From Pacificibacter marinus (GTDB lineage Bacteria > Pseudomonadota > Alphaproteobacteria > Rhodobacterales > Rhodobacteraceae), in contig NZ_FNZV01000003.1 in NCBI RefSeq assembly GCF_900109555.1, positions 1 through 64,000 on the forward strand: a stretch of 64,000 nucleotides of DNA, in the 5' to 3' direction. Position numbers and translations under genes: made by a program. Below the pieces are notes generated by a model that was not told the origin of the DNA, ran no database searches, and saw nothing but the letters and a program-made list of their open reading frames with translations. Shown here in pieces: positions 28,051-46,558 of this stretch. Every line of letters begins with the position of its first letter. Within the stretch, counting starts at the first letter, position 1.

Positions 28051-28776
28051 ATGGCGCACAGCCCCGCAGACAGGCGTTTCGCAATGGACCAAGCAATCTT
28101 AGATGGAGACCCGCCCGTGGCGGTGCTTTTGCGGCGCTCAGCGCGCGCACGTCGACTGTCGTTGCGTGTGTCTCGTTTGGATGGGCGTGTAACGCTGTCT
28201 TTGCCGCCTCGTGCCAGCGAACGCGCCGCTTTGGCGTTTCTACATGAAAAGGAAAGTTGGATTCGCGCCAATCTTGCTGACGTGCCGCAAGATCGTGTTG
28301 CGGCTCTTGGGGTCGCCATTCCGTTCTTGGGTCAAGACAGGATTGTGGTGGCCGGAACTGGGCGTGCCGCACGTGCTGAAGGCGATGTTTTGGTGGTCCC
28401 GAGCGCGGCGCATATGGTTGGGGTGCGGCTTGAGGCCTTTTTGAAGCTTCAGGCCAAAACGCGTTTGCGCGCGGCCTCTGATAAATACGCGCAGGCGCTT
28501 GGTACAGATTACGGTCGTTTGACTATTCGCGATACTCGGTCTCGTTGGGGATCCTGCACCAGCGATGGCAATCTTATGTATTCTTGGCGGCTTGTAATGG
28601 CCCCTGCGCCAGTGCTTGATTACGTTGCTGCCCATGAAGTTGCGCACCGTCTTGAGATGAACCACTCCAATCGATTTTGGGCGCATGTCGAACGCGTGTG
28701 TCCCGAATATGCCACGCACCGAGATTGGTTGCGTACCGAGGGGCAGGGGTTGCATGCGTGGCGGTTTAAAGATTAG
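28051..28776 (+). CDS. YgjP-like (M48-type, DUF45) metallopeptidase
   Basis: A 241-residue protein of the YgjP/SprT-like family. The zinc motif HEVAH is at about residue 195, followed by a third ligand in MNHSNRFW, the family signature. The central segment TIRDTRSRWGSCTSDGNLMYSWRL is diagnostic. The start is uncertain: ATG at 28051 or the in-frame ATG at 28084 (MDQAILDGD), neither with a strong ribosome site. The substrate is unknown. It is divergent from the FYDLN gene, and the 159-bp spacer should hold both promoters. Confidence 0.85.
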   Translation: MAHSPADRRFAMDQAILDGDPPVAVLLRRSARARRLSLRVSRLDGRVTLSLPPRASERAALAFLHEKESWIRANLADVPQDRVAALGVAIPFLGQDRIVVAGTGRAARAEGDVLVVPSAAHMVGVRLEAFLKLQAKTRLRAASDKYAQALGTDYGRLTIRDTRSRWGSCTSDGNLMYSWRLVMAPAPVLDYVAAHEVAHRLEMNHSNRFWAHVERVCPEYATHRDWLRTEGQGLHAWRFKD

Positions 28777-28839
28777 CCAAGCTTGAACGCATTGCTTGCG
28801 ATCCAATGTTTCGCTTCAACAATTGACCTTTCCTATTTT

Positions 28840-28849
28840 TGTGATCACA
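28840..28849. promoter_or_regulatory. TGTGATCACA palindrome upstream of gntR-type gene
   Basis: A perfect 10-bp palindrome in the context TTTTTGTGATCACATT, ending 8 bases before the GntR-type ATG. The same element stands in front of sucC and sdhC. Its position on or near the transcription start fits autorepression by the GntR-family product. Confidence 0.55.
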
Positions 28850-28857
28850 TTAGCGCC

Positions 28858-29526
28858 ATGATACCACAGACCCCCATACATCAACCACCCAAAGTGGGGG
28901 ATACCGCGACCTCTGCCCATGATCGTGTGTACCGGACGTTGCGCACGCAAATCATGCATGGTGAGTTTCGCCCCGGACAGTCCATGACCCTGCGTGGGAT
29001 TGGTAAAACTTTTGGTGTGTCTATGACGCCTGCGCGCGAAGCTGTGCGGCGCCTTGTTGCAGAGGGAGGCTTGTCTTTGTCGTCTTCTGGCCGTGTCGCA
29101 ACGCCAGAACTGTCAAGTGAACGTATCGAAGAACTGGCATCCTTGCGGGCGCTTTTAGAGCCAGAGCTGGCCTCGCGCGCTTTACCTCGCGCGCACCTTG
29201 CACTGATAGACCGGCTACAAGCCATCAACGCTACTATTGCGGAATGCGCTGCCAAACACGATGATGTGGGGTACATTCGCACCAATCTCGAATTTCATCG
29301 GACCCTATATCTACGCGCCCAAGCGCCTGCGATGCTGGCCCTAACTGAAACTGTTTGGCTGCAATTGGGGCCGACTATGCGCGCGCTGTATGCACGGCTC
29401 AATCGTACTGAAGTGCCGCACAATCACCGGCTTATTGTGTCTGCGTTGCGCGCGGGGGATGAACCCAGTTTGCGCCTTGCGCTGCGCTCTGATGTGACCC
29501 AAGGGCTGCGGCTGCTTGTCGTTTAG
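28858..29526 (+). CDS. GntR family (FadR/FCD subfamily) regulator, candidate TCA-cycle regulator
   Basis: A 222-residue protein. The winged HTH is at about residues 20-85 (HDRVYRTLRTQIMHGEFRPG, then GIGKTFGVSMTPAREAVRRL). An all-helical FCD effector domain follows (SLRALLEPELASRAL; NLEFHRTLYLRA; VPHNHRLIVSALRAGD), keeping two of the usual metal-ligand His positions. FCD domains sense carboxylates. The ATG at 28858 (MIPQTPIHQ) has no ribosome site, so the mRNA may have a very short leader; the frame extends upstream to 28783 without homology. The TGTGATCACA element just upstream recurs before sucC and sdhC, so I infer control of the TCA cycle. The ligand is unknown. Confidence 0.85.
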   Translation: MIPQTPIHQPPKVGDTATSAHDRVYRTLRTQIMHGEFRPGQSMTLRGIGKTFGVSMTPAREAVRRLVAEGGLSLSSSGRVATPELSSERIEELASLRALLEPELASRALPRAHLALIDRLQAINATIAECAAKHDDVGYIRTNLEFHRTLYLRAQAPAMLALTETVWLQLGPTMRALYARLNRTEVPHNHRLIVSALRAGDEPSLRLALRSDVTQGLRLLVV

Positions 29527-29576
29527 CCCTAAATTTTTCGCCCTAAACCGATACCCCCTAGGTAAAATGAGACCCC

Positions 29577-30056
29577 ATGGACAACGCACGCTTTCTTGAA
29601 ATGACTGAACTTATGACCCCTGAAATGGCCAACTTTTCAGGCAAAGTGCATGGCGGTGCTTTGCTTAAAATTCTCGATTTGGTCGCCTTTTCCTGTGCGT
29701 CTCGCTATTCGGCAAAATATGCAGTGACCTTGTCGGTGGATCAGGTGGTGTTCAAAGAGCCCATACATGTGGGCGAATTGGTGCATTTTCGTGCCTCTGT
29801 AAATCATGTGGGGCGCAGTTCGATGGAAATTGGCATGCGGGTCGAAGCGGAAAATATTCGCACCCGTCAAGTGCGCCACACCAACAGTTGTTATTTCACC
29901 ATGATTGCTGTGGATGATGACGGCAAACCTGTTGCTGCACCGCAGTTTCAGCCGATGACCGAACTTGATCGCAGGCGTTGGCGCGCTGCGGAATTACGCA
30001 AAGAGCTGCGCAAAGAACATGCGGCGCGGATGCAGGAAATTTCGCAACTGCCGTGA
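29577..30056 (+). CDS. Acyl-CoA thioesterase (hotdog fold, YciA-like)
   Basis: A 159-residue single hotdog-domain enzyme. The helix motif SGKVHGGALLKILDLVAF supplies the usual catalytic Asp region, followed by YAVTLSVDQVVFKEPIHVGE and a conserved NSCYFTMIAVDDDGKP segment. It hydrolyses acyl-CoA to free acid and CoA in the cytosol; chain length is not readable. It stands alone, 50 bp after the GntR gene on the same strand, and is followed by a bidirectional terminator shared with lpd. Confidence 0.9.
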   Translation: MDNARFLEMTELMTPEMANFSGKVHGGALLKILDLVAFSCASRYSAKYAVTLSVDQVVFKEPIHVGELVHFRASVNHVGRSSMEIGMRVEAENIRTRQVRHTNSCYFTMIAVDDDGKPVAAPQFQPMTELDRRRWRAAELRKELRKEHAARMQEISQLP

Positions 30057-30085
30057 CACAACACGGCATTGTAAGCACAGAAACA

Positions 30086-30116
30086 AAAAAGGCACCCCAA
30101 AATGAGGTGCCTTTTT
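30086..30116. terminator. Bidirectional intrinsic terminator
   Basis: A perfect 11-bp stem, AAAAAGGCACC with GGTGCCTTTTT and a 9-base loop, flanked by A and T runs. It lies between the convergent thioesterase and lpd genes, serving both. Confidence 0.88.
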
Positions 30117-30136
30117 CTATGAATATAACCAAGAGT

Positions 30137-31531
30137 TTACGCGTGGATTGGACCATCACCAAGCGCAAGCGCTGCTTCGCGTACAGCTTCGGAATAAGTC
30201 GGGTGTGCGTGACATGTCATCGCCACGTCTTGGGCAGATCCACCATATTCCATAGCCACACAAATCTCGTGGATCATGTCGCCCGCTGATGGCCCGATGA
30301 TCGCTGCGCCAAGCAGACGATCTGTGTCCGCGTCAGCGATAAGTTTCACGAAACCCTCGCCTTGGAACACAGCTTTGGCCCGCGCGTTGCCCATAAAGGA
30401 AAACTTGCCGACTTTGACTTTGCGGCCTTCCGCTTTCAACTGCGCTTCGGTTTTGCCGACGGTTGCGACCTCTGGCGATGTGTAGATCACACCTGGGATC
30501 ACGTCGTAGTTCACGTGGCCATGTTTGCCTGCAAGAACTTCTGCGACGGCCATACCTTCGTCTTCGGCTTTGTGCGCCAACATTGGCCCGACGATCGCGT
30601 CACCAATGGCGTAAATGCCCGCCACATTGGTTGCCCAATGCGCGTCGGTTTTGACCTGACCGCGCTCTGTGAATTCAACGCCAACCTCAGCCAAACCCAA
30701 GCCGTCAGTAAAGGCTTTGCGGCCTGTCGCGACCAAGACAACATCTGCGTCAAGAACGTGCTCTGACTCGTCTTTCTTGAGTTTGTACGACACTTTCGCT
30801 TTGGATTTCGTGGCTTCCACGCCTTGAACTGCAGCGCCCATAATGAAAGTAAGGCCCTGTTTTTCAAGCAGCCTTTTGAACGCGCGTTGAACATCTGCGT
30901 CCATGCCTGGGGTGATGGCATCCATGTATTCGACGACGGTCACCTCTGTGCCCAAGCGTGCGTAGACTGAACCAAGCTCAAGCCCGATGACGCCTGCGCC
31001 GATCACGGTCATTTTCTTTGGCACTTTCGGCAACTCAAGCGCGCCTGTGCTGTCGACCACAACGCCTGCGTCATTGTCCACTGTGATGCCTGGCAGCGAT
31101 GAAGGAACGGAACCTGATGCGATAACGATATTTTTCGCGTCATGGATGTCGTCGCCTACTTTGACTTTGCCCGCAACAGGGATCGAAGCCCAGCCTTTGA
31201 TCCAGTCGATCTTGTTCTTTTTAAACAAGAATTCGATGCCGCCGGTGTTTTGGCCAACAACGTCATCTTTGTAGGCTTTCATCTGGGGCCAGTCGACGGA
31301 TGGCGATTTGCCTTTGAGACCCATTTTCGCAAAGTTGTGCTCTGCTTCATGCAAGTGATGCGTCGCGTTGAGCAGCGCTTTGGAGGGGATACAGCCCACG
31401 TTGAGGCATGTCCCGCCAAGGGTGTCGCGGCCTTCAACAACTGCCGTTTTCAGGCCGAGTTGTGAACAGCGAATTGCGGACACATAGCCGCCAGGGCCTG
31501 CACCGATGATGATTACGTCGTAAGAAGCCAT
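30137..31531 (-). CDS. lpd: Dihydrolipoyl dehydrogenase (E3)
   Basis: A 464-residue FAD/NAD oxidoreductase. It has the FAD motif [17 protein letters not shown] at the N-terminus, the redox disulphide [16 protein letters not shown], the NAD-binding [19 protein letters not shown], and the C-terminal active-site His in [15 protein letters not shown]. It reoxidises dihydrolipoamide of 2-oxoglutarate dehydrogenase (SucAB upstream). The ATG at 31531 (MASYDVII) has AGGA before it; the upstream in-frame start at 31564 is less likely. It is the last gene of the suc cluster, ending at a strong terminator. Confidence 0.95.
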
Positions 31532-31567
31532 TGGGGTCCTCAATTCTTGTTGTGACTGTGACAAGCC

Positions 31568-32437
31568 CTATTGGGCGTTTGCCTGTGTTGAAGTTGGTGT
31601 ATCAACCCCGAAGGCTCGGTTCAATACATTGGATAATTCGCCAATCTCGCGCAGGTGAAAGGCGACGGGATGCCTTTTGTAATCATGCGGAACAAGCATG
31701 ACGTTCGAACAGTCTTCGACGCGCTGCATTTGCTGAGTGTCGAAGGGATTGTGTTCGGCGTAGTGAAGTTCGGCTTTTCCCGCGAAAGGTTCATCGCGCA
31801 ATAGGGGCAACAGATCGTTGCTGGGATCATTGAGATCAAAACCAATTTCCCAAGGTTTCTGCCCCGCGAATTTCACAACAGATCGCCTGTTTACTAGGGT
31901 TTGCGCACCAAATGTGACGATGCCGTCAGCTTTAAGTTGATGCCCAAGATACAGCGCCATATAGCCGCCCGCACTGGCACCAATGAAGTGCCATGGACGT
32001 GGCATATCTTTGAGAAAATCACCCATCCATGTGACTGTTTCAGCACGGTTTTCGGTGATACCCAAGAGGCCGCGTTGATACCAGACTTGTTCGTAGTCCT
32101 TGAGAAAAACTTGGTTCATTTGCGCGCTTTCCAGAACGCGGGAGAATTCGCGTTTGGGGGCCGCGGGGCCGTTTAAAAGACTGCCAAGACTGATGATTGT
32201 GCCTTGAGGTGCCTCGACGATTTTACGCTCGACAGGCATGAATGGTGCAATTGCGGGGTCTTCGGAAAAGCCGCCGTAAGCATTAGACAATAGCGCTTGA
32301 GTCGTGAGGCGCATGGCGCGCTCTTTCTCAAAACTCTTGAACGCTCCCTCGAAATCTTGAGGGGCATGGGGTTGCCTAAACACGTCCACCTTTCGGCTCT
32401 CCTTGGTCTTTTTTTGCGGTCTGATAACAATCGGCAC
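31568..32437 (-). CDS. Predicted alpha/beta hydrolase in suc-lpd cluster
   Basis: The nucleophile elbow FIGASAGGYMALYLG (Ser about 155, GxSxG) and the preceding YEQVWYQRGLLGITENRAETV support an alpha/beta hydrolase fold in this 289-residue protein. A C-terminal LVPHDYKRHPVAFHLREIG offers a possible catalytic His. There is no signal peptide. The start shown is GTG without a ribosome site; an internal ATG at 32312 (MRLTTQ) is possible. It lies between sucB and lpd on the same strand, 36 bp before lpd. I do not recognise a specific function, and the location may simply be co-transcription with TCA genes. Confidence 0.65.
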   Translation of the reverse strand: MPIVIRPQKKTKESRKVDVFRQPHAPQDFEGAFKSFEKERAMRLTTQALLSNAYGGFSEDPAIAPFMPVERKIVEAPQGTIISLGSLLNGPAAPKREFSRVLESAQMNQVFLKDYEQVWYQRGLLGITENRAETVTWMGDFLKDMPRPWHFIGASAGGYMALYLGHQLKADGIVTFGAQTLVNRRSVVKFAGQKPWEIGFDLNDPSNDLLPLLRDEPFAGKAELHYAEHNPFDTQQMQRVEDCSNVMLVPHDYKRHPVAFHLREIGELSNVLNRAFGVDTPTSTQANAQ

Positions 32438-32568
32438 TTGGTCTGCGCAGGGTCTGCTATGTGTCGGTTATCTGTATGTCATCTATTTTAGTTGGAATTC
32501 TAGGCGATGACTGTCGCGCTTTTGCTCTAGGCGGTCTCTGGCGCGGTGTTGATCGCATGGATGGATAG

Positions 32569-32586
32569 GAGGCCGCGAACGGCCCC
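32569..32586 (-). terminator. Hairpin with TTCG tetraloop after sucB
   Basis: Read on the minus strand, GGGGCCG pairs with CGGCCTC around a TTCG loop, about 20 bp after the sucB stop. No T-run follows, so it may protect the sucAB transcript end or cause partial termination. Confidence 0.4.
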
Positions 32587-32607
32587 CTAAAACTGGAGTG
32601 TGTTGTC

Positions 32608-34092
32608 TTACAGATCCATCAACAAACGACGTGGATCTTCCAGCGCTTCTTTGACGCGCACGAGGAAGGTCACGGCACCTTTGCCGTCAACGATGCGGTG
32701 ATCGTAGGACAGGGCAAGGTACATCATCGGGCGGATCACAACTTGACCTTTGATCGCCATGGGGCGGTCTTGGATTTTGTGCATGCCGAGGATGCCGGAC
32801 TGTGGAGGGTTCAAGATCGGTGAAGACATCAACGACCCGTAAACTCCACCGTTAGAGATGGTGAATGTCCCGCCTTGCATTTCTGCCATAGACAGTTTGC
32901 CGTCACGCGCACGTGCACCTTTTTCAGCGATCGCTTTTTCAATACCCGCGAAAGACATCTGATCGGCGTCACGGATCACAGGAACAACAAGCCCCTGAGG
33001 TGTGCCAGCGGCGATGCCCATGTTAACGTAGTTTTTGTAAACCACATCTGTGCCGTCAATTTCGGCGTTCACTTCGGGCACTTCGTTCAAAGCGTGAATA
33101 CAAGCTTTGGTGAAGAAGGACATAAAGCCCAATTTCACGCCGTGTTTTTTCAAGAACAGGTCTTTGTATTCATTCCGCAGCGCCATGACTTCGGTCATGT
33201 CGACTTCGTTGTAGGTGGTCAGCATCGCGGCAGTGTTTTGCGATTCTTTCAAACGGCGCGCAATCGTCTGGCGCAGTTTGGTCATTTTTACACGCTCTTC
33301 GCGGGCAGCATCTTGAGGTGCTGATGCGGCACGCGGGGCGGCAGCGGCTGCGGGGGCTGCTTTCGGGGCAGCCATCGCTTTGAGCACATCGTCTTTCATG
33401 ATGCGACCATCTTTGCCTGTGCCTGAAACAGACGCGGCATCGACACCGTTTTCAGCCATCAGTTTGTTGGCTGATGGGGCGTTTTCAATGTCTTTGCCTG
33501 TGGATGCGGCGGGGGCTGCAGTTGCAGCAGCGGCAGGCGCGGCAGCAGATGCGCCTGAGCCAGATGAGATGACCGCAAGTTTGGCAGAGGCATCAACAGT
33601 TGCGCCCTCGGCCGCGACGATTGCAGTCAATGTGCCAGCCGCAGGGGAGGGCACTTCGACAGAGACTTTGTCGGTTTCAAGTTCGCACAGCATTTCGTCT
33701 TGCGCGACTGTGTCACCCACGGCTTTGAACCATGTGGCCACTGTGGCCTCGGTCACGGATTCGCCAAGCGTTGGCACCATAACGTCAACATCAGCGCCGC
33801 CAGTGGCAGGGGCTTGGGTCGGGGCAGATGCGGCTGGTGCAGGTGCTTCGCCTGAACCAGCGTTCAAGGTGGCGAGCAGGGCATCAACGCCAACTGTTTC
33901 ACCTTCGGCGACGATGATTTCGCCGAGTGTGCCCGCAGCAGGTGAGGGCACTTCGACAGTCACTTTATCGGTTTCGAGTTCGCAAAGCATTTCATCAACG
34001 GCAACGGCATCGCCTGGTTTTTTGAACCAAGTTGCAACAGTGGCCTCGGTGACGCTTTCGCCTAGGGTTGGAACGCGGACTTCAACAGACAT
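32608..34092 (-). CDS. sucB: 2-Oxoglutarate dehydrogenase E2 (dihydrolipoyl succinyltransferase), two lipoyl domains
   Basis: A 494-residue acyltransferase. Two tandem lipoyl domains carry lipoyl-Lys at about 43 and 142 ([11 protein letters not shown] and [11 protein letters not shown]), each followed by an Ala/Pro linker. A peripheral-subunit-binding domain follows ([20 protein letters not shown]). The C-terminal catalytic domain ends with [16 protein letters not shown], the active-site His/Asp motif. E. coli SucB has a single lipoyl domain and is about 405 residues. It transfers succinyl groups to CoA in the 2-oxoglutarate dehydrogenase complex. It starts 4 bp after sucA. Confidence 0.96.
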
Positions 34093-34096
34093 GGGA

Positions 34097-37060
34097 TTAC
34101 CCTTCGATATTCAGCGCGTCGTTCACGAGCGCCAGTTGTTGTGCTTTGTGTTGGGATGCGAGGCCAGTGGCGGGCGACGCGGAGGCGGCGCGGCCGGCAT
34201 AGACCGGACGCGTGTGTTTGGATTTGATGCGTGTGAGCACCCATTCGATGTTTGGCTCGACAAAGGTCCAGCCGCCTTGGTTTTTGGGCTCTTCTTGGCA
34301 CCAAACAACTTCGGCACCTTTGAAGCGTTCCAATTCTTTGACCATGGACAGGGCTGGGAATGGGTAGAATTGTTCAAGACGCAAGATGTAGGTGTCGTCT
34401 TTTCCAGCGGCATCGCGCGCTTCTAACAGGTCGTAGTAGACTTTGCCTGAACAGATCACGACGCGTTTGATTTTGTCGTCGGTTTTGAGCGTGATGTCGG
34501 ATTTTCCGGTGCGGTGGCCTGCATCGGCGTCATCCCAAAGAACGCGGTGGAAGGATGAGCCTTCGGTGAAGTCGGCAGCAACCGAGGTCGCAAGTTTGTG
34601 ACGCAACAGCGATTTTGGTGTCATCAAAACAAGTGGTTTGCGGAAAGACCGGTGGATTTGGCGGCGCAGGATGTGGAAGTAATTCGCCGGTGTTGTACAG
34701 TTCGCCACGATCCAGTTGTCTTGGCCACACATTTGCAAGAAACGCTCGAGGCGGGCTGAGGAGTGCTCTGGGCCTTGGCCTTCATAGCCGTGTGGCAAGA
34801 GCATCACGAGACCGGACATGCGCAACCATTTGCTTTCACCGGATGAGATGAATTGGTCGAACATGATTTGCGCGCCGTTGGCGAAATCGCCGAACTGTGC
34901 TTCCCACATGACCAGTGAGTTTGGCTCGGCCAATGAATAGCCGTATTCAAACCCCAGAACCGCATATTCAGATAGCATGGAGTCGATGACTTCGTACTGG
35001 GCCTGACCTTCGCGCACGTTGTTGAGCGGGTAGTAGCGGTCTTCGGTTTTTTGGTCGATCAGCGCCGAGTGGCGGTGCGAAAATGTGCCGCGTGTGGAAT
35101 CTTGGCCGGACAGACGTACAGGGTAGCCTTCGGTCAAAAGCGATCCGAATGCCAAAGCTTCGCCGGTCGCCCAGTCAAATCCTTTGCCCTCAGCGAACAT
35201 TTTGGATTTGGCTTCCAGTTGGCGTATCACGGTTTTGTGGACAGTGACGTTATCGGGTTTATGTGACAGCGATTTGCCAACTTCGGCCATTGTGTCAGCT
35301 GAGATAGACGTTTGACCGCGCTGATACTCTTCGCCTTCTTTGTTGATGTGCGACCAGCGTCCATCAAGCCAGTCAGCTTTGTTTGGCTTAAAGTTTTTGC
35401 CTGCTTCAAACTCATCATTCAGATGCGCTTGGAACGCGGCTTTCATGTCTTCGATTTCGCCCTCTGGGATCAGGCCGTCTTTGACCAAGCGCTCTGTGTA
35501 GAGTTGCAATGTGGTCTTGTGGCGTTTGATCGTTGTGTACATCGCCGGGTTGGTGAACATCGGCTCGTCGCCTTCGTTGTGACCAAAGCGGCGGTAACAG
35601 AAGATGTCGATGACAACGTCTTTGTGGAATTTCTGGCGGAACTCAGTCGCCACTTTCGCCGCGTGCACAACCGCTTCGGGATCGTCGCCGTTGACGTGAA
35701 AAATCGGCGCTTCAACAACCAATGCGTTGTCGGTTGGGTAAGGGGATGAGCGCGAGAAATGCGGTGCTGTTGTAAACCCGATTTGGTTGTTCACAACGAT
35801 ATGGATGGTGCCGCCTGTGCGGTGACCACGCAAGCCAGACAGACCGAAACATTCCGCCACAACACCTTGGCCCGCAAATGCAGCATCGCCGTGCAGCAAT
35901 ATTGGGATCACAGACGTGCGCTCTGGATCTTTATTTTGGTCAGTTTTCGCACGCACTTTACCAAGCACAACGGGATTCACCGCCTCAAGGTGCGAAGGGT
36001 TCGCGGTCAAGGACAGGTGCACTTCGTTGCCGTCGAATTCACGGTCAGAAGACGCGCCGAGGTGGTATTTCACATCGCCAGAACCGTCGACATCTTCGGG
36101 TTTGTAGGACCCGCCTTGGAATTCGTGGAAGATCGCGCGGAACGGTTTGGACATCACGTTGGACAGCACGCTGAGGCGACCGCGGTGCGGCATGCCGATG
36201 ATGATCTCTTTGACGCCCAAATTACCGCCGCGTTTGATGATTTGTTCCATCGCAGGGATCAAAGACTCACCGCCATCAAGACCGAAACGTTTCGTGCCCA
36301 TGTATTTGACGTGCAGGAATTTTTCAAACCCTTCGGCTTCGACCAGCTTGTTCAAAATGGCTTTGCGGCCTTCACGTGTGAACTGGATTTCTTTGCCGTA
36401 GCCTTCGATACGTTCTTTCAGCCAGCCCGCTTGTTCTGGGTCTGAAATGTGCATGTATTGCATCGCGAATGTGCCACAGTATGTGCGCTGCACAATATCC
36501 ATGATCTGACGCATAGAGGCCATTTGCAGGCCAAGCACATTGTCGATGAAAATCGGGCGATCCATGTCGGCATCTGTGAAGCCGTATGATTTTGGATCAA
36601 GCTCGGGGTGTGGTGTTTCGGCTTTCATCTTGAGCGGGTCAAGATCGGCAATCAAGTGGCCGCGAATACGGTAGGCGCGAATGATCATCAGCGCGCGGAT
36701 GGAATCCAGCACAGCGCGTTTGATTTGGTCGTCAGTGACCTCAACGCCTTTTTCAACAGCTTTGGCTTTGATTTTTTTCTCGGCTGCGGCAGGTTCTGCG
36801 GCCCATTGGCCATCCATGGCCGCTGTTAGATCGTCGTTTGGCACGGGAGGCCAATCGGCGCGACCCCATGAAGGACCAGCAGCTTCGGCTTGTGCATCAG
36901 CCGGTGCATCGCCCAAGCTTTTGAAAAACTCTCCCCAAGCAGCATCCACAGAAGATGGGTCGGTGGCGTAGCGGGCATACATCTGTTCGAGGTATTCCGC
37001 ATTGTGCCCTTGCATAAAGGAAGAGGCGTGGAGGATGTCGTTGTCGCTGTGGTCTGACAT
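34097..37060 (-). CDS. sucA: 2-Oxoglutarate dehydrogenase E1
   Basis: A 987-residue thiamine-diphosphate enzyme, decarboxylating 2-oxoglutarate and passing the succinyl group to SucB. The N-terminal E2-interacting tail has [20 protein letters not shown]. The middle has [17 protein letters not shown], and ThDP-site residues lie around [20 protein letters not shown] and [13 protein letters not shown]. The C-terminal half has the transketolase-like [18 protein letters not shown] precedes the ATG. It lies 136 bp after sucD with a hairpin between, so expression may be adjusted there, and 4 bp before sucB. Confidence 0.97.
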
Positions 37061-37143
37061 GAGGGTGACCTTGGGTTGGGTATCGGTGCGGGTTTCGGTA
37101 TCGTTTGGCTCACACGTAAATGCGTGCCATCTTATATGGGTAA

Positions 37144-37172
37144 GCCTGCGCCCTTAAGTGAGGGGCGCAGGC
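37144..37172 (-). other. Intercistronic hairpin between sucD and sucA
   Basis: A perfect 10-bp stem (GCCTGCGCCC / GGGCGCAGGC, 9-base loop) in the 136-bp gap. It lacks a T-run on the minus strand. It could be a partial terminator or an RNA processing/stability element setting the SucCD to SucAB ratio. Confidence 0.5.
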
Positions 37173-37196
37173 ACTATTTTGGCTCAAAGCCAATGC

Positions 37197-38081
37197 TTAG
37201 GCTTTGATTGCTGCCATAACAGCTTCGCCGAGTGTCGCAGGGCTGTCTGCCACAACGATACCAGCGGATTTCATAGCTTCGATTTTGCTTTCCGCATCAC
37301 CTTTACCACCAGCAACAATCGCGCCAGCGTGGCCCATACGACGGCCGGGAGGAGCTGTGCGACCAGCGATAAAGCCAGCTGTTGGTTTCCAACGGCCTTT
37401 TTTGCGCTGCTCTGCGAGGAATTCAGCTGCTTCTTCTTCTGCGGAGCCGCCGATTTCGCCGATCATGATGATGGACTGCGTTTCGTCATCGTTGAGGAAC
37501 ATGTCCAAGATGTCGATGTGCTCTGACCCTTTGATGGGGTCGCCGCCGATGCCCACAGCTGTGGATTGGCCAAGGCCCAGATCAGATGTCTGTTTCACAG
37601 CTTCGTATGTGAGCGTACCTGAACGGGACACAACGCCAACAGACCCACGGTTGTGGATGTGGCCCGGCATGATGCCGATTTTACAGGCGTCAGGTGTGAT
37701 AACACCTGGGCAGTTTGGTCCGATGAGACGTGATTTGGAGCCTTCCAAAGCGCGTTTCACTTTCATCATATCGAGAACTGGGATGCCCTCAGTGATACAG
37801 ATGATCAATTCCATTTCAGCGTCGATCGCCTCAAGGATTGAATCGGCTGCAAAGGGGGGAGGCACGTAGATCACAGAAGCATTTGCTTCTGTCACGTGGC
37901 GTGCTTCGTGGACAGAGTTGAACACTGGCAGGTCAAGGTGGGTCATGCCGCCTTTGCCGGGTGTTACGCCGCCAACCATTTTGGTGCCGTAAGCAATCGC
38001 TTGCTCTGAGTGGAATGTGCCTTGTGAGCCAGTGAGGCCCTGACAGATAACGCGGGTGTTTTCGTCTACGAGAATGGCCAT
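37197..38081 (-). CDS. sucD: Succinyl-CoA synthetase alpha subunit
   Basis: A 294-residue subunit carrying the CoA-binding Rossmann domain ([22 protein letters not shown]) and the phospho-histidine loop in [18 protein letters not shown]. With SucC it converts succinyl-CoA to succinate, making ATP or GTP. The length equals the family's usual size. It starts 4 bp after sucC and is followed by a hairpin. Confidence 0.97.
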
Positions 38082-38085
38082 GGTA

Positions 38086-39282
38086 TTATCCTTTCACCGC
38101 TTTAACGATTTTCTGCGCGCCGTCTTTCAGGTCGTCAGCAGCAATCACGTTCAAACCGGAGTTCTTGATGATGTCTTTGCCAAGCTCAACGTTTGTGCCT
38201 TCAAGACGCACAACGAGAGGCACCTGCAAGCCAACTTCTTTCACAGCCGCGATCACGCCTTCTGCGATCACATCACACCGCATGATGCCGCCGAAGATGT
38301 TGACCAAGATGCCTTTGACGTTTGGATCAGAGGTGATGATTTTGAAAGCTTCTGTCACTTTCTCTTTGGTTGCACCGCCACCAACATCAAGGAAGTTCGC
38401 AGGCTCAGCGCCGTAGAGTTTGATGATGTCCATAGTAGCCATCGCAAGACCAGCACCGTTCACCATGCAACCGATTTCGCCATCAAGAGCGATGTAGTTG
38501 AGGTCGTGCTTGGACGCTGCGAGTTCTTTTGGATCTTCTTCGGTTTCGTCGCGCAATTCTGCGATGTCCGCGTGGCGGTACATGGCGTTGCCGTCGAAAG
38601 ACACTTTCGCGTCGAGCACTTTAAGATCAAGTGTTTTTTCTAGAACGATCAGTGGGTTGATTTCGAGCATTTCCATGTCTTTCTCAACGAAAGCACGGTA
38701 GAGGTTGCCCATCAACTGAACGCATTGTTTCACTTGCGCGCCTTTGAGGCCCAAAGCGAATGCAACACGACGACCGTGGAATGCTTGGTAACCACAAGCT
38801 GGGTCAACAGAGAAAGACAAGATTTTCTCAGGTGTGTTGGCTGCAACTTCTTCGATATCCATGCCGCCCTCAGTGGAGCACACGAAAGACACGCGAGATG
38901 TTTGACGATCTACGAGCAGAGCCAAGTACAATTCTGTTTCAATGTCAGACCCATCTTCGATGTAGATGCGGTTGACTTGTTTGCCAGCAGGGCCAGTTTG
39001 GTGCGTGACCAAAGTTTGACCAAGCATTTGCTTGGCGTGCTGTGCAGCTTCTTCAACGGAAAACGCCAAACGCACGCCGCCTTTTTCGCCAGCTTCCGCT
39101 TCAACGAATTTGCCTTTGCCGCGTCCACCAGCGTGGATCTGCGCTTTGACAACCCAAAGAGGTCCGTCAAGTTCACCAGCTGCCGCTTTGGCATCTGCTG
39201 CATTCAAAACAGCACGTCCGTCAGAAACCGGTGCGCCATATGTGCGAAGCAATGCTTTCGCCTGATACTCATGAATATTCAT
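38086..39282 (-). CDS. sucC: Succinyl-CoA synthetase beta subunit
   Basis: A 398-residue ATP-grasp subunit: [19 protein letters not shown] at the start, an ATP-binding region with [20 protein letters not shown], and the C-terminal ligase domain with [17 protein letters not shown] and [16 protein letters not shown]. It is the first gene of the sucC-sucD-sucA-sucB-hydrolase-lpd cluster on the minus strand. AAGGATGGG precedes the ATG. Two TGTGATCACA palindromes lie 110-140 bp upstream. Confidence 0.97.
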
Positions 39283-39391
39283 GAATGTGTCCCATCCTTA
39301 GTTTTATTCTCTTAAGACATGACACACACTATAAGGATTAAGGAACAGTTTTTTCCCTATAAATGAGTGATAGGCCGTTTTTTCGACATTT

Positions 39392-39422
39392 TGTGATCAC
39401 ACGTCTGAATGCTGTGATCACA
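39392..39422. promoter_or_regulatory. Pair of TGTGATCACA palindromes upstream of sucC
   Basis: Two perfect copies at 39392-39401 and 39413-39422, 21 bp centre to centre, i.e. about two helical turns. They lie 110-140 bp upstream of the sucC start in the spacer shared with the divergent glycosyltransferase gene. The same sequence precedes sdhC and the GntR gene. Confidence 0.6.
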
Positions 39423-39849
39423 AAAATCGTAAAGCATGAACTTTGCTTGGATCGCCTTGTGTACTTGACGGATTCGCAACACAGGCTTTCGGGTTTTTCA
39501 TTTTTCCCATTTCTAGAACATACCAAGCGTGGTGCGTTTGGCCAAATCTTGGTGCCACCAAAATGCATGCGGTTCGCCGTGTCGTGTAAAATTTTAGGAC
39601 GAGACATGAGCACAGGCTTGCGCGCAGGGATGAATTTACAAAACGTATTTGGGTCCAAACTGCCTCCCAAATGCTGTCTCAAACATGACCATGAGCACGC
39701 AAGACGTCGACTGCGCTTTGGCCTTTGATAAAAATAACTTGAAATATCAGACCAAAATATATGACACTCAGAAAAGCCTGATTGTGGCTTTTCTAGTCGC
39801 GTTTTGCGGTGGATCACAAAAGACGATCATAAGCGAAAGGCGCGGCGAT
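39423..39849. other. Intergenic region upstream of glycosyltransferase gene
   Basis: About 430 bp without a convincing gene. It contains TTTGGCCAAA at about 39538 and a hairpin at 39770-39794. Open frames here on both strands are compositionally random and run through the operator region, so I do not call them genes. Confidence 0.5.
39770..39794. other. Hairpin before glycosyltransferase gene
   Basis: A perfect 9-bp stem (AGAAAAGCC / GGCTTTTCT) with 7-base loop, 55 bp upstream of the glycosyltransferase start. It resembles an intrinsic terminator without a long T-run, and may attenuate transcription or be a relic. Confidence 0.4.
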
Positions 39850-40944
39850 ATGAGTGGAACTGAACCGACATGGGGTGTCGTGGCCACAGTCGATGAGCCT
39901 GCCGTTTTGGTCGCGGCGTTTGTGCGGCATCATTTGGCGATTGGGGCCAGTGAAGTACACTTGTTTCTTGATCGTCCGCATCCGGGTTTGGCGCCTTTGG
40001 TCGAGGGACTAAAGGGATGCTTTGTGACGCTGTGCGATGCGCAATATTGGGAAAAGTCATCAATCGGATTTAGGCCTGAATATCATATCAGGCGGCAAAA
40101 ACATAATGCCAACATAGCCTTTCACCATACCCAATGCGACTGGCTTTTGCATTGTGATGCAGATGAATTTGTAGACAATGGTGATAGGATTAAGGCGAGT
40201 TTGGCCTTGTTTCATGACGCCCAACAGGATGCTGTGATCCCATATTTGGGGATTAAACTTCGCAACAACGAACGCGTTTGGTGCCCAGATGCAAAGCCAA
40301 ACACATCGTCTGACAGTTCATGGGGGCAGACCACGGTGTTCGATGGTGGGTTTCGGTTTTCGACGACCCTTTATGATGATGTGATCCGTGAAAAATTTAA
40401 ACCATTCGGGATGTATTTGAAGCACGGGTTAAGCGGGCATTGCTCCGGAAAAACGATGTCTCCCGTTGGTGCGGATTTGGAATTGGGCATCCACCGTGCG
40501 TTTAAAACAGGTACTCATGATCCGGTAAACCGGACTAGCAGCACTGCCATTTTGCATCACTTTGATGGCTTAACGCCGCTGCATTATATTTTAAAAATGC
40601 TCAAGCGAGGGTACGAAACCCCAAATGGGCCGCGGTCGCGCCAAGCGCCGCATAGGTCTGGCACACCACCCAGAAAGGGATCGCACAGGCGGATGGATCA
40701 AGCGCTGTTCATTCGCAAAAACGCGAGTGACGGGGCCAAAATGAAGCGGTTTGTACGGATGGTAAAATCGGTCAATGCTGCGCAAATCGAGCGCTACAAT
40801 GCATTTTTGGCGTTTGATACGACACCTTTCGATCTGCGCGGTTGTGCCGAGCTTGATCTGAGTGCCGCGTCGTTTGATGCAGCCCTTTTGGCAGAAAATA
40901 TGGAATTTTTTGAAATGGCAGGCTTGGCGTATTGGGGCGATTAG
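39850..40944 (+). CDS. Glycosyltransferase family 2-like protein
   Basis: A 364-residue protein. The N-terminus (TWGVVATVDEPAVLVAAFVRHHLAIGASEVHLFLD) matches the nucleotide-sugar-binding start of GT-A enzymes of the type that carry a DxD-like motif. Such a motif is visible here as LLHCDADEFVDN (Asp103/Asp105). There are no membrane segments. The ATG at 39850 follows AAAGG. The acceptor and sugar are unknown; relatives in Rhodobacterales are surface-polysaccharide-type transferases. It is a lone gene on the plus strand between sucC and mdh. Confidence 0.75.
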   Translation: MSGTEPTWGVVATVDEPAVLVAAFVRHHLAIGASEVHLFLDRPHPGLAPLVEGLKGCFVTLCDAQYWEKSSIGFRPEYHIRRQKHNANIAFHHTQCDWLLHCDADEFVDNGDRIKASLALFHDAQQDAVIPYLGIKLRNNERVWCPDAKPNTSSDSSWGQTTVFDGGFRFSTTLYDDVIREKFKPFGMYLKHGLSGHCSGKTMSPVGADLELGIHRAFKTGTHDPVNRTSSTAILHHFDGLTPLHYILKMLKRGYETPNGPRSRQAPHRSGTPPRKGSHRRMDQALFIRKNASDGAKMKRFVRMVKSVNAAQIERYNAFLAFDTTPFDLRGCAELDLSAASFDAALLAENMEFFEMAGLAYWGD

Positions 40945-40984
40945 ACTGCGTGGCTCGTAGGGAAAACACAATCGGTGAGACATA

Positions 40985-41011
40985 AAAAAGGCCCGCGCAA
41001 ATGCACGGGCC
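40985..41011 (-). terminator. Intrinsic terminator of mdh
   Basis: Read on the minus strand, GGCCCGTGC pairs with GCGCGGGCC (one G-T) around ATTT, followed by a run of six T. It lies 25 bp after the mdh stop and could also slow plus-strand transcription from the glycosyltransferase gene. Confidence 0.85.
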
Positions 41012-41036
41012 GATTATATTTTGGGTGTCGAAAGAC

Positions 41037-42044
<1,008 letters not shown>

Positions 42045-42162
42045 TCATTTGCGAGCCATCGCGCAAGTGCGCTGCAGTGCAGAGGGCCAGTCAATTTTTC
42101 TGGTGTTAGCGTAAACGTAGGTCTAGCGTGCTGCAAAATCAGTTCAAATAAGTGAAAATATC

Positions 42163-42915
42163 ATGACATTAGATTTATATTTTTTCGCCTTTGCGATCCC
42201 CGCAGTGGTCTTTGCCGGCATGTCTAAGGGGGGATTTGGCTCTGCTGCGGCCTTTGCTGCGACGCCTTTTTTGGCACTGATTCTCACGCCGGGGCAGGCA
42301 ATCGGGCTGATGTTGCCTTTGTTGATGATCATGGATGTCACTGCGATCAAGGTCTATTGGCGTAAATGGGATTGGCGGGTGGCGCGCACGCTGATCATCG
42401 GTGCTGTGCCGGGGATTTTGCTGGGCGGGGCGCTGTACGGATTTGCTGATCCTGATGTGTTTCGGTTCTTGATCGGGGTCGTGGCCGTTGGATTTGTGAT
42501 CTATCAACTGGCCAAATCCAGAGGGCTGATCGCACCACCAAAAGCACAAATGAGTCCGTGCGCAGGGTTCTTTTGGGGGACTGTGACAGGGTTTACGAGC
42601 TTTATTTCCCATGCGGGCGGGCCGCCTGCTGCGGTTTATTTGCTATCGCAAAAGCTGGACAAAACCACGTATCAAGCCACCAGTGTGATTGTGTTCTGGG
42701 CCATCAATTTACTTAAGTTTATCCCATATTTCGCCGTTGGAATTTTTTCCAAAGAGACGTTTCACGCGGATCTGATGTTGATCCCAGCAGCCATCGCAGG
42801 CGTTTTTATTGGGGCATATCTACACAAGAAAATGTCGGAAAAGCTGTTTTTTGGCCTGACATATGTGTTTCTCGTTGTGACGGGCGTCAAGCTTATCTTT
42901 GATGCGCTGACTTAG
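42163..42915 (+). CDS. TauE/SafE family sulfite/organosulfonate exporter-like membrane protein
   Basis: A 250-residue protein with about seven hydrophobic segments, the duplicated TauE/SafE pattern, and Gly-rich turns GMSKGGFGSAAAFAATPFLAL and SFISHAGGPPAAVYLLSQKL. The family moves sulfite, sulfoacetate or other anions across the inner membrane; the substrate here is unknown. The ribosome site is weak. It is divergent from mdh. Confidence 0.85.
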   Translation: MTLDLYFFAFAIPAVVFAGMSKGGFGSAAAFAATPFLALILTPGQAIGLMLPLLMIMDVTAIKVYWRKWDWRVARTLIIGAVPGILLGGALYGFADPDVFRFLIGVVAVGFVIYQLAKSRGLIAPPKAQMSPCAGFFWGTVTGFTSFISHAGGPPAAVYLLSQKLDKTTYQATSVIVFWAINLLKFIPYFAVGIFSKETFHADLMLIPAAIAGVFIGAYLHKKMSEKLFFGLTYVFLVVTGVKLIFDALT

Positions 42916-43140
42916 AACTGGACCCTAAATCAGTCACATTTTCCTTGAGTACTTTATTGGACATGGGTCTGCTGGCTGTGTCGGGTGTCGTATCGTATGC
43001 TTGGTATGGTTTAGGGGCGCTTGGCTGCGGTCATTGTGATGTTAAGTCGGGCGTCTTTCTGCGCTGCGGAATTTTTATACTTGCGTAATGGTGCGTTTTT
43101 GTGCCCTTTTGCGCAAGAATATTTCGGAGTGAAAGAATCA

Positions 43141-44010
43141 ATGACCCAAGCCTCTCCTCAGTCGACAGCAGCCCGCCCATACCGTTCTGCGCTTTATATT
43201 CCAGGTGCCAAAGAACGAGCATTGGAAAAGGCCAAGGGGTTGGCGTGCGATGTGATTTTATTCGATCTTGAAGACGCTGTGGTGCCCGACGAAAAGATTG
43301 CGGCACGTGCCACGTTGAAAGCGGCGATCGCGGCTGGCGGTTACGGCGCACGGGCGAAAATCGTGCGGGTGAACGGGTTTGATACGGCTTGGGGCGCAGA
43401 TGATGTCGCGGCCTTTGTCGGCACTGGCATTGACGGTATTTTATTGCCCAAAGTCGAAAGTGCGGCCATGGTTGATGCGCTTGCCGAGGCCATTCCAGAT
43501 GTGCCGCTTTGGGCGATGATGGAAACACCGCTGGGTCTGCTGAACGCGGCCGAAATAGCGGCACATCCACGTATGGCGGGGTTTGTGCTGGGCACCAATG
43601 ATTTGGCCAAAGAATTGAATGCTCGGTTTCGCCAAGATCGCTTGCCGATGATGGGCGGCCTGCATTTGGCACTGCTGGCGGCGCGGGCGTATGGTTTGGT
43701 GGCACTGGATGGGGTGTACAACGCCTTTAAAGACGATGCGGGGCTGCAATTTGAATGTGAGCAGGGCCGCGATATGGGCTTTGACGGTAAAACGTTGATC
43801 CATCCCGCACAGCTTGCCATTGCCAATGCAGCGTTTGCCCCAAGTGCAGATGAGATCGATTTGGCCACACGCCAGATCGCAGCGTTTGAAGCATCTGAGG
43901 CAAAAGGCGAAGGTGTTGCAGTTGTCGATGGTAAGATTGTGGAAAATCTTCATATTGTGACGGCACGGGCCACTTTAGAAAAGGCGCGTGCGATCAAAGC
44001 AATGGAGTAA
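43141..44010 (+). CDS. mcl2: CitE-like (3S)-malyl-CoA thioesterase (Mcl2 type)
   Basis: A 289-residue HpcH/HpaI aldolase-like protein: YRSALYIPGAKERALEKAKG, DVILFDLEDAVVPDEK (metal-binding Glu/Asp), LLPKVESA, METPLGLLNA and GFDGKTLIHPAQ. Malyl-CoA lyase and malyl-CoA thioesterase are close relatives. The YRSALYIPG start and the setting beside mesaconyl-CoA hydratase match the (3S)-malyl-CoA thioesterase described in Rhodobacter sphaeroides, which splits malyl-CoA to malate and CoA in the ethylmalonyl-CoA pathway. The ATG at 43141 has GGAG 11 bases upstream; in-frame codons from 43021 lack homology. Confidence 0.8.
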   Translation: MTQASPQSTAARPYRSALYIPGAKERALEKAKGLACDVILFDLEDAVVPDEKIAARATLKAAIAAGGYGARAKIVRVNGFDTAWGADDVAAFVGTGIDGILLPKVESAAMVDALAEAIPDVPLWAMMETPLGLLNAAEIAAHPRMAGFVLGTNDLAKELNARFRQDRLPMMGGLHLALLAARAYGLVALDGVYNAFKDDAGLQFECEQGRDMGFDGKTLIHPAQLAIANAAFAPSADEIDLATRQIAAFEASEAKGEGVAVVDGKIVENLHIVTARATLEKARAIKAME

Positions 44011-44013
44011 GCC

Positions 44014-44559
44014 ATGATCCTTATCATTCTCGGGGTGCTGCTGTGGAGCGGCGCACATTTTTTTAAATTCATTGCGCCAGATGCGCGGGCCAAACTCGGG
44101 GACAAGGGCAAGGGCATTGTCGCGATCTTGTGTATTGTGGCCATTGTTTTAATGGTCGTGGGCTATCGCAGCGCCGAAGGGCCCGTTTTTTGGGGCCGCA
44201 GTGCAGCGCTTGTCGGCATTAATAATCTACTGATGTTGTTGGCAGTTTATTTGTTCGCGGCCTCTGGTGCGAAAACTTGGATCACGTCCAAGGTGAAAAA
44301 TCCGCAACTGACGGCTGTTAAAGTTTGGGCCTTGGCGCATTTGTTGGTGAACGGCGCATTGGAAGACATTCTTTTGTTTGGCGGCATGATCGTATGGGCT
44401 GTTGTGACTGTCATTGTCTTGAAGCGCACAGGTGCCGAGCGGGCAGTCTATCAGCCAGTTGGGACCAAGAAAGAGATCACCACATCGCTGATAGCTGTTG
44501 TTGTCACAGTGATCCTTATGGGGCTTCACGCGGCGCTTGGCGCAACACCTTGGGGGTAA
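44014..44559 (+). CDS. NnrU family membrane protein
   Basis: A 181-residue integral membrane protein with about five hydrophobic segments and the NnrU family pattern (ILGVLLWSGAHFFKFIAPDAR; VWALAHLLVNGALEDILLFGGMIVWAV). Named from a denitrification gene, but widely present next to central-metabolism genes in Rhodobacterales with no proven function. It starts 3 bases after mcl2 and is likely in the same transcript. Confidence 0.88.
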   Translation: MILIILGVLLWSGAHFFKFIAPDARAKLGDKGKGIVAILCIVAIVLMVVGYRSAEGPVFWGRSAALVGINNLLMLLAVYLFAASGAKTWITSKVKNPQLTAVKVWALAHLLVNGALEDILLFGGMIVWAVVTVIVLKRTGAERAVYQPVGTKKEITTSLIAVVVTVILMGLHAALGATPWG

Positions 44560-44563
44560 TGTG

Positions 44564-44767
44564 ATGAAAGCGTACCGATTGTTGACCGCAGATGACACAT
44601 CTGACTTTTGCCACAAGGTGACTGAGGCATTGAGCAAGGGATGGGAGCTCTACGGAGATCCTGCCTACGCCTATGACGCAGCGAATGGGACGATGCGATG
44701 TGCTCAGGCTGTGACCAAAGACGCGGATGGTGACTATTCGCGCGATATCAAACTGGGGGCCCTGTAA
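44564..44767 (+). CDS. DUF1737 small protein
   Basis: A 67-residue protein matching the DUF1737 pattern: KAYRLLTADDTSDFCHKVTEAL followed by SKGWELYGDPAYAYD. It is predicted cytosolic. It starts 4 bases after the nnrU-type gene stop and lies 33 bp before mesaconyl-CoA hydratase, so it is part of the same unit. Function unknown. The ATG at 44564 is preferred to an in-frame one at 44537 that overlaps the neighbour. Confidence 0.82.
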   Translation: MKAYRLLTADDTSDFCHKVTEALSKGWELYGDPAYAYDAANGTMRCAQAVTKDADGDYSRDIKLGAL

Positions 44768-44800
44768 CCGCGGGGGCTTTGCACTTGGGAGCTTGCACAG

Positions 44801-45832
44801 ATGAAGACCAATTCGGGACGCTTTTTTGAAGATTACACCGTAGGCCAAGTGATTGCGCACGCTGTGCCGCGCACTTTGTCAGGGGGTGAACGGGCACTGT
44901 ATCATGCGCTCTACCCTGCGCGTCACGCGTTGTATTCGTCAGATGAGTTCGCAGAAAGCTGTGGGCTTGCGGCCGCGCCGATGGATGATCTGATCGCTTT
45001 TCACACGGTGTTTGGCAAAACGGTCCCTGATATTTCGCTTAATGCCATCGCGAACTTGGGCTATGCCGAAGGGCGGTTTTTGAAGCCTGTATTTGCTGGT
45101 GATACACTGCGGTCTGTGTCCGAAGTTATTGGATTAAAGCAAAACTCAAACGGCAAATCCGGTGTCGTTTGGGTGCGCACCAAGGGCATCAATCAACATG
45201 GTGAGACTGTGTTAGAGTATGTGCGTTGGGTAATGGTGCGCAAAGCCAATTTGGATGCGCCCGCGCCGGACACTGTGATCCCGAAACTGAGTGATGTGGT
45301 GGACCCAAGCACGCTGGCCGTGCCCGAAGGTTTAGAGTTTCTGCGGTATGACTTCACAGCTGCGGGCGAAGAGCATCGCTTGGCCGACTATGAGATTGGC
45401 GAGAAAATAGATCACGTGGACGGGGTTACGATTGAAGATGCCGAGCACATGATGGCGACGCGGCTTTGGCAAAATACGGCTAAAGTGCATTTTGATCGCA
45501 CCAATCGGCCAGACGGCCAGCGACTTATATATGGCGGTCATGTGATATCGTTGGCGCGGGCTTTGTCCTTTAATGGTTTGGCCAACGCGCAAATGATCGC
45601 GGCGATCAACGCTGGCGCGCATGCCAATCCGTGCTTTGCAGGCGATACTGTGCGGGCGTGGTCCGAGGTTTTGGACAAAGCTGAAACGCGAGCGCCCGGA
45701 GTGGGGACTATGCGGTTGCGCTTGGTTGCGGTCAAACATGGCGCGCCTGATTTTGCGCTGAAAGGGGATGACGGAAAGTATCATCCTGATGTGCTTTTGG
45801 ATCTCGACTACTGGGTGTTCATGCCGCTTTAA
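44801..45832 (+). CDS. mch: Mesaconyl-CoA hydratase (beta-methylmalyl-CoA dehydratase)
   Basis: A 343-residue double-hotdog MaoC-like hydratase. The first half has FFEDYTVGQVIAHAVPRTLS and HALYSSDEFAESCGLAAAPMDDLIAFH; the second has ENTAKVHF-like QNTAKVHFDRTNRP and IYGGHVISLARALSFNGLAN. The size and double-hotdog plan match mesaconyl-CoA hydratase of the ethylmalonyl-CoA pathway, which interconverts mesaconyl-CoA and erythro-beta-methylmalyl-CoA. GGGAG precedes the ATG. It is the last gene of the mcl2-nnrU-DUF1737-mch run, upstream of the sdh promoter. Confidence 0.9.
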   Translation: MKTNSGRFFEDYTVGQVIAHAVPRTLSGGERALYHALYPARHALYSSDEFAESCGLAAAPMDDLIAFHTVFGKTVPDISLNAIANLGYAEGRFLKPVFAGDTLRSVSEVIGLKQNSNGKSGVVWVRTKGINQHGETVLEYVRWVMVRKANLDAPAPDTVIPKLSDVVDPSTLAVPEGLEFLRYDFTAAGEEHRLADYEIGEKIDHVDGVTIEDAEHMMATRLWQNTAKVHFDRTNRPDGQRLIYGGHVISLARALSFNGLANAQMIAAINAGAHANPCFAGDTVRAWSEVLDKAETRAPGVGTMRLRLVAVKHGAPDFALKGDDGKYHPDVLLDLDYWVFMPL

Positions 45833-46168
45833 TCCGATTTTTACGACATGCATATCTGTGTGTTCTGGCTGCATGTATTGATCGCCTTGCGGTTTGCGCA
45901 TGACGTTTTCGGTGCTGATGTTTTCATATGACCTTGTGATGCGAGGCGCTAAATATGTGTAAACCCTACAAAAAAAGTCAGAATATTTGTGACCTCAATT
46001 TGTGATCACGACAAAATATTTGTGATCACAGAGGCCATTTTTTTGATCATTTTGTACGGAATGCCCCCAGATTCACCTTTCGTTAGCGCACACAAAGGAT
46101 GACTCTGGCCCAGAACTTGTTACAACATCAAAGAACAATCACCGCATCATTCGTGAAAGGAATTCGCC
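45833..46168. promoter_or_regulatory. sdh promoter region
   Basis: A 336-bp gene-free spacer between mch and sdhC. It contains two TGTGATCAC-type elements (46001-46030), an AATATTTGTGA direct repeat (45982-45992 and 46015-46025), and TTTGATCATTTTG just downstream. The last 90 bp before sdhC form the probable leader. Confidence 0.55.
46001..46030. promoter_or_regulatory. Pair of TGTGATCACA-type elements upstream of sdhC
   Basis: TGTGATCACG at 46001-46010 (one mismatch from the perfect palindrome) and TGTGATCACA at 46021-46030, 20 bp apart, about 140-170 bp upstream of sdhC. A further TGTGA half-site is at 45988. The element is shared with sucC and the GntR gene. Confidence 0.6.
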
Positions 46169-46558
46169 ATGGCTGATGTGAACCGAGGCAACCGTCCTCT
46201 GTCGCCCTTTATGTTTGGGACGTACTATCGTCCCCAGATGACCTCGATGTCATCTATTCTTGTCCGCATCACAGGCAACGCTTTGATCGTTGCCGTTTTG
46301 ATGATCGTCTGGTGGCTTGTTGCCGCAGCCGTGTCGCCGGAATGCTTTGCCACAGCTGACGCATTTTTGCGCTCTTGGTTCGGTGATCTGGTGTTCCTTG
46401 GGTCCACTTGGGCGCTTTGGTATCACTTTGGTGGTGGCTTGCGTCACCTTGCATGGGACTTTGGCTACTGTTTGAATGTTGAGACATCCGAGAAACTCGG
46501 TTGGGCCATGCTGATTGGCGCAACTGTTCTTACGTTCATCACCATGATCGTCACATAA
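46169..46558 (+). CDS. sdhC: Succinate dehydrogenase cytochrome b556 subunit
   Basis: A 129-residue membrane anchor with three transmembrane helices. The NRPLSPFMFGTYY start is typical, and the heme-ligand His lies in WYHFGGGLRHLAWD. It binds heme b and quinone with SdhD. AAAGGAA precedes the ATG. It heads the sdhCDA-lipoprotein-sdhB operon. Confidence 0.95.
   Translation: MADVNRGNRPLSPFMFGTYYRPQMTSMSSILVRITGNALIVAVLMIVWWLVAAAVSPECFATADAFLRSWFGDLVFLGSTWALWYHFGGGLRHLAWDFGYCLNVETSEKLGWAMLIGATVLTFITMIVT

Follow-up and report, generated by a model that had tools for sequence, protein, structure and literature searches.

The 64,000-nucleotide stretch of Pacificibacter marinus DNA analysed here (the window; positions 1 to 64,000 of contig NZ_FNZV01000003.1) carries a 10-bp palindrome, TGTGATCACA, in front of a GntR-type regulator gene and of the operons sucCDAB-lpd and sdhCDAB. 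The palindrome is very likely the operator of this regulator, an orthologue of AkgR, with paired sites predicted to activate the two operons and a single site predicted to limit the expression of akgR. The repetition of the palindrome is real and far from what chance would give. A motif scan of the window locates four exact copies and one copy with a single mismatch, TGTGATCACG, all at the places named in the first-pass annotation of this DNA, which was also right in setting one copy 8 bp before the ATG of the regulator gene. The sites and the genes next to them are as follows.

28840..28849, no strand assigned: single predicted AkgR operator before akgR, exact copy, ending 8 bp before the ATG at 28858, with TTGAC upstream of it at 28823-28827; possible site of autorepression.
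28858..29526, plus strand: akgR, GntR-family FCD regulator of 222 residues (Pfam GntR 2e-13, FCD 2e-18).
38086..39282, minus strand: sucC, first gene of a predicted target operon; matched in 30 of 30 genomes searched, of which G021 and G037 gave only a paralogue or remnant.
39392..39422, no strand assigned: paired predicted AkgR operators of sucC (39392-39401 and 39413-39422, both exact), 109 bp upstream of the start codon of sucC.
46001..46030, no strand assigned: paired predicted AkgR operators upstream of sdhC (46001-46010, the one-mismatch copy, and 46021-46030, exact), from the motif scan and relatives.
46169..46558, plus strand: sdhC, first gene of the second predicted target operon, from its open reading frame (ORF) and relatives.

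The start-to-start spacing of the paired copies is 21 bp at sucC and 20 bp at sdhC, a feature on which the first-pass annotation makes no comment. Allowing at most one mismatch, the window holds 11 matches, compared to a mean of 2.66 and a maximum of 8 in 100 shuffles. The 3.87-Mb genome contains eight exact copies of TGTGATCACA, four of which are in the window. Three of the four outside copies are within ORFs, which were named from reading the sequence as Smr-like, ornithine-cyclodeaminase-like, and UvrA, and one is intergenic. The pair GTGATCAC-N12-14-GTGATCAC, with members 20-22 bp apart, occurs only twice in the genome, at 39393 and 46002 of the same contig, in front of sucC and sdhC. Single-site matches to TGTGATCAC number 44 forward and 46 reverse. 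A mechanical ORF test, covering the fetched loci, placed 20 of the 22 distinct TGTGATCAC sites found outside the window among 30 fetched loci within ORFs, and two between ORFs. A chance origin of the palindromes was rejected on the basis of the window shuffles, the genome copy count, the pairing, and the reversed controls described below. A wider regulon controlled by the paired site in the P. marinus genome was also rejected, as only two pairs are present.

The intergenic exact copy, a single site (G000:C25:96924-96933; L001:1501-1510), is located approximately 130 bp upstream of a DegP/HtrA-like protease gene, which comes after HflK/HflC-like genes; these names were given by eye.

The product of 28858-29526 contains a GntR domain (Pfam, 50.2 bits, cut-off 27) and an FCD domain (67.4 bits, cut-off 24.3), and is thus a GntR/FCD protein of the FadR type. 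A search of the window regulator against NCBIfam gave no match above the curated cut-off. In Rhodobacter sphaeroides, AkgR, which we take to be the product of RSP_0981, reportedly activates tricarboxylic acid (TCA) cycle genes directly, according to Imam, Noguera and Donohue in 2015. Control of sucCD, sdh, and the genes for alpha-ketoglutarate dehydrogenase has been predicted for the R. sphaeroides GntR protein RSP_0981 (PMC4344238, 2015). AkgR has been described as an R. sphaeroides transcriptional activator with GTGATCAC among its binding sites (PMC6365646, 2019, citing Imam et al. 2015, mBio 6:e02461-14). The regulon prediction, the activator role, and the GTGATCAC motif are taken from these two papers.

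The window regulator shares 74.9% identity over 215 residues with the akgR product of genome G051, which is presumed to be Rhodobacter (Cereibacter) sphaeroides, partly because of its gene order. The order lpd-sucA-sucD-sucC-mdh-...-sdhC-D-A-B-akgR, with akgR beside sdhB, fits the numbering from RSP_0962 to RSP_0981 (PMC4344238). The G051 protein shares 94% identity with its counterpart in Cereibacter ovatus, the best named sequence among the matches listed. G051 has operator pairs upstream of sucC, with one copy mismatched, and upstream of sdhC, with both copies exact. The window regulator is orthologous to a Cereibacter akgR product and very probably to R. sphaeroides AkgR, judging by the sequences compared. 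The first-pass annotation had united the GntR protein and the two operons in one regulon, a proposal that is supported at the sequence level, but had matched the regulator to no named protein, which the assignment to AkgR corrects.

The operator pairs are conserved across Rhodobacteraceae. The exact 31-bp pair (TGTGATCACA, 11 bp, TGTGATCACA) is present in 88 of 149 genomes of the family, and the relaxed pair GTGATCAC-N12-14-GTGATCAC in 133; the reversed control of each gave zero. The spacer sequence between the members of exact pairs varies freely. Thirty exact pairs were fetched, one per genome and including that of the window, and are positioned upstream of sucC (24), sdhC (5), and sucA (1). 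In 26 aligned sucC promoters, the distance from the end of the pair to the start codon is 95-165 bp. By our own count, 106 genomes have two relaxed pairs, 25 have one, and G042 and G135 have three. Of 385 genomes drawn across the class, three contain the exact pair, and these are all among the five drawn from Rhodobacteraceae.

The third GTGATCAC pair of G042 (G042:C16:228293-228321) lies on a contig other than those with its suc and akgR genes. In locus L072 (G136:C1:87752), the paired operator is directly upstream of sucA, after mdh, and no sucC was found in the fetched locus, which suggests that the operator stayed with the operon.

The presence of the pairs follows that of akgR. Close relatives of akgR, defined by a best E of 1e-50 or better, a threshold that we set, were searched for within Rhodobacteraceae and are present in 133 of the 149 genomes, including that of the window. 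The AkgR orthologues listed are 65-82% identical to the window protein, except for those of G033 and G122 (49%). No close akgR was found in the other 16 of the 149 genomes (G004, G008, G014, G017, G019, G021, G029, G048, G054, G059, G083, G096, G101, G102, G109, and G114). Relaxed pairs occur in 130 of the 133 genomes with close akgR and three of the 16 without (one-sided Fisher p 1.8e-13), and exact pairs in 87 and one, respectively (5.2e-6); these p values overstate independence because the genomes are related and kinship was left uncorrected.

The same association is seen at individual promoters, with sites scored at up to one mismatch. The sucC promoter has a site in 13 of 14 akgR-positive genomes chosen for lacking an exact pair, the sole miss being G037, where the match is a 37% paralogue. 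Among the 16 akgR-negative genomes, four have a site at sucC (G019, G096, G114, and G109, the last with a single TGTGATCAAA), and G021 is unreadable, as the sequence matched to sucC is a 51% paralogue and the sdhA locus lacks DNA upstream. The sdhC promoter, scored 600-1500 bp upstream of sdhA only, has a site in all 14 akgR-positive genomes picked by hand, versus two (G096 and G114) of the 14 readable akgR-negative ones, which exclude G019 for want of an sdhA match; G054 has a one-mismatch site nearer to sdhA than the region scored. Pairing at 20-21 bp is present in 12 of the 14 akgR-positive sucC promoters (exceptions G037 and G058) and in 12 of the 14 sdhC promoters, where G045 has a spacing of 19 bp and G009 is unpaired. 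The proposal of the first-pass annotation was framed so as to depend on three points. Two of them hold, as the motif in the form of pairs is not scattered at random over the genome and is kept at orthologous sucC and sdhC promoters. The third, absence from genomes without the regulator, holds in large part, the exceptions being three of the 16 genomes without a close orthologue.

The single operator in the promoter of akgR has a narrower distribution. Among the 30 akgR loci nearest to the protein of the window, its own included, 22 have an exact site 9-23 bp before the start used, one has a site with one mismatch, one with two, and six have none. Of these 30 loci, 29 have the motif TTGAC no more than 75 bp upstream. 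It may be derived in part from the stop codon of a preceding peptidase-like gene, yet it is also present in L018 and L021, where that gene was not found. In the window, this gene (M48/YgjP type, named by eye) occupies 28051-28776, and 27 of the 29 other genomes have a gene of the same type in the locus fetched around akgR.

The best 80 loci nearest to the G051 protein include 79 that are readable, L206 having no upstream DNA. The akgR-proximal site is exact in 12 of them, has one mismatch in three and two mismatches in one, and is missing, with at least three mismatches, in 63; TTGAC is present in 64 of the 79. Upstream of akgR in G051 itself, no site was found at up to one mismatch. Listed genomes with the site include Ruegeria marina, Roseobacter sp. 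MED193, Phaeobacter sp., Cognatishimia sp., and some metagenome bins, and those without it include Cereibacter, Gemmobacter, and Tabrizicola. On a tree of 110 proteins, built quickly and with 54 of 102 inner branches weakly supported, site presence (up to two mismatches) requires six changes, compared to 32.6 in shuffles. The distribution over loci and tree indicates that self-control of AkgR is probable in the lineage of the window and is not general. The autoregulation suggested in the first-pass annotation is therefore plausible for the window, but does not extend to most of the Cereibacter-side loci, G051 included, where the operator before akgR is absent.

We propose that AkgR dimers bind the two palindromes spaced 20-21 bp apart upstream of sucC and sdhC. 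This distance corresponds to two turns of DNA and would align a pair of dimers along the same face of the helix, an arrangement that suggests cooperative binding. By analogy with R. sphaeroides AkgR, paired binding would activate sucCDAB-lpd and sdhCDAB, which cover the part of the TCA cycle from alpha-ketoglutarate to fumarate. The single operator just before the akgR ATG, downstream of the -35-like TTGAC, may enable AkgR to limit its own synthesis; its position between TTGAC and ATG fits repression. The signal sensed by AkgR might be a TCA-cycle metabolite. The usual metal/carboxylate pocket of FCD domains is marked by the motif D..FH, a later histidine, and a final histidine. In AkgR, inspected by eye, the first position is asparagine (NLEFH) and no final histidine is evident (SDVTQGL), and the printed relatives are similar. 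The usual metal site may thus be absent from AkgR.

It is improbable that AkgR represses sucC and sdhC instead of activating them. GntR/FCD proteins are mostly repressors, and the akgR-proximal site between TTGAC and the start codon is in a repressor-like place. However, AkgR has been named a transcriptional activator (PMC6365646), and repression of its own gene therefore does not carry over to the suc and sdh operons. The distance at which the pairs end before sucC in the 26 promoters is compatible with an upstream activator, without being proof of one. We consider it quite unlikely that a GntR/FCD paralogue other than AkgR reads the palindrome at the two operons. The genome holds 16 further matches to AkgR, the best paralogue being 34% identical. 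The nearest paralogue, L039 (G000:C42:670134-670757), is preceded at a short distance by TATGATCACA, which differs from the operator at one position; this paralogue may share the DNA specificity of AkgR. Such specificity is not unique to AkgR, as a Pseudomonas regulator 32% identical to it has been proposed to use GTGATCAC (PMC6365646). Nevertheless, the sites at sucC and sdhC track the close orthologue. The relatives of AkgR in genomes G054 and G101 are more distant (best E 3.4e-47 with 39% identity in G054, 1.4e-32 in G101), and the regions scored at sucC and sdhC contain no site in these two genomes. Furthermore, 24 of the 30 akgR loci nearest to the window carry the operator in the promoter of akgR itself when up to two mismatches are allowed.

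The least credible of the alternatives is that the palindromes are CRP/FNR-like or chance sequences unrelated to the GntR gene. The half-sites TGTGA and TCACA do match the halves of the CRP consensus, TGTGA-N6-TCACA, but in TGTGATCACA they abut without the 6-bp spacer expected of CRP/FNR sites, and a CRP-like site was rejected for this reason. In addition, all 30 fetched pairs are at suc or sdh operons, pairs track the presence of akgR, and outside Rhodobacteraceae the class-wide draw yielded no exact pair.

Several observations weigh against assigning the palindrome to AkgR as proposed above. Three genomes (G019, G096, and G114) keep pairs without a detected close akgR. They are 91%, 77%, and 100% complete, in approximately 210, 50, and 320 contigs, and we suppose that assembly gaps fall at akgR. 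Conversely, G040, G122, and G147 have akgR without relaxed pairs, and the sites are not paired at 19-21 bp at sucC of G058 and sdhC of G009. The third pairs of G042 and G135 and the 63 loci without an akgR-proximal operator point in the same direction. The reversed control is lenient, since the CTAG within it is a rare sequence in many bacterial genomes. Finally, a scan for sigma-70-like sequences after the 26 sucC pairs scored the same as shuffles (6.56 versus 6.50), so the operator-to-start geometry is not established.

The remaining genes of the predicted target operons in the window are listed below; among the 29 other akgR loci, the fetched stretch includes lpd in 11.

30137..31564, minus strand: lpd, dihydrolipoamide dehydrogenase, start codon uncertain; ORF named from reading the sequence.
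31568-32437: ORF between lpd and sucB.
32608..34092, minus strand: sucB, E2 with two lipoyl domains; ORF named from reading the sequence.
34097..37060, minus strand: sucA, alpha-ketoglutarate dehydrogenase E1; ORF named from reading the sequence.
37197..38081, minus strand: sucD; ORF named from reading the sequence, adjoining sucC in relatives.
46574-46945, plus strand: sdhD; ORF.
46958-48766, plus strand: sdhA; ORF, search with sdhA.
49096-49875, plus strand: sdhB; ORF, search with sdhB.

The regulator, its motif, and its targets have been published for R. sphaeroides, and the core regulon is thus known. Our reading of the palindrome is well supported and adds modest new detail. Sequence comparison across 149 genomes of a single family now confirms a regulon that was described in one species, and the 31-bp signature enables AkgR control of the TCA cycle to be read from sequence alone. 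Neither the near-fixed spacing of 20-21 bp nor the clade-specific akgR operator was found in the available parts of the literature on AkgR, and a literature text search for the full 10-mer TGTGATCACA returned no regulator work among the titles. We lean, by a small degree, towards regarding the arrangement as a near-fixed device, in which two 10-bp palindromes locked at 20-21 bp serve two promoters and are tied to akgR. The roseobacter-like branch would use the regulator as a switch under autoregulation, whereas in the Rhodobacter branch, where the feedback is largely missing, the same regulator would run as an open loop. With the clade-specific akgR operator, nature provides a comparison of one regulator in the presence and absence of feedback.

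The closest known system is that of R. sphaeroides AkgR, an orthologous GntR/FCD protein with the GTGATCAC motif and the targets sucCD, sdh, and alpha-ketoglutarate dehydrogenase. The akgR gene of the window is located near lpd, with one ORF between them, and its promoter contains an operator, whereas akgR of G051 is near sdhB and lacks such an operator. The nearest solved structure by sequence is that of the GntR/FCD protein McbR/YncC of Escherichia coli (PDB 4p9f, E 1.6e-20), a distant relative whose targets and operator differ from those of AkgR. RSP_1663, presumably CceR, is of another family than AkgR and has the motif GTT N6-8 AAC. The sdh genes of R. sphaeroides are predicted targets of this LacI-family protein, as they are of AkgR, and so is mdh (PMC4344238). 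PS417_07240 of Pseudomonas simiae, the 32% identical regulator mentioned above, is proposed to bind the same GTGATCAC palindrome, but belongs to another lineage and is proposed to control a deoxyribose catabolism cluster (PMC6365646).

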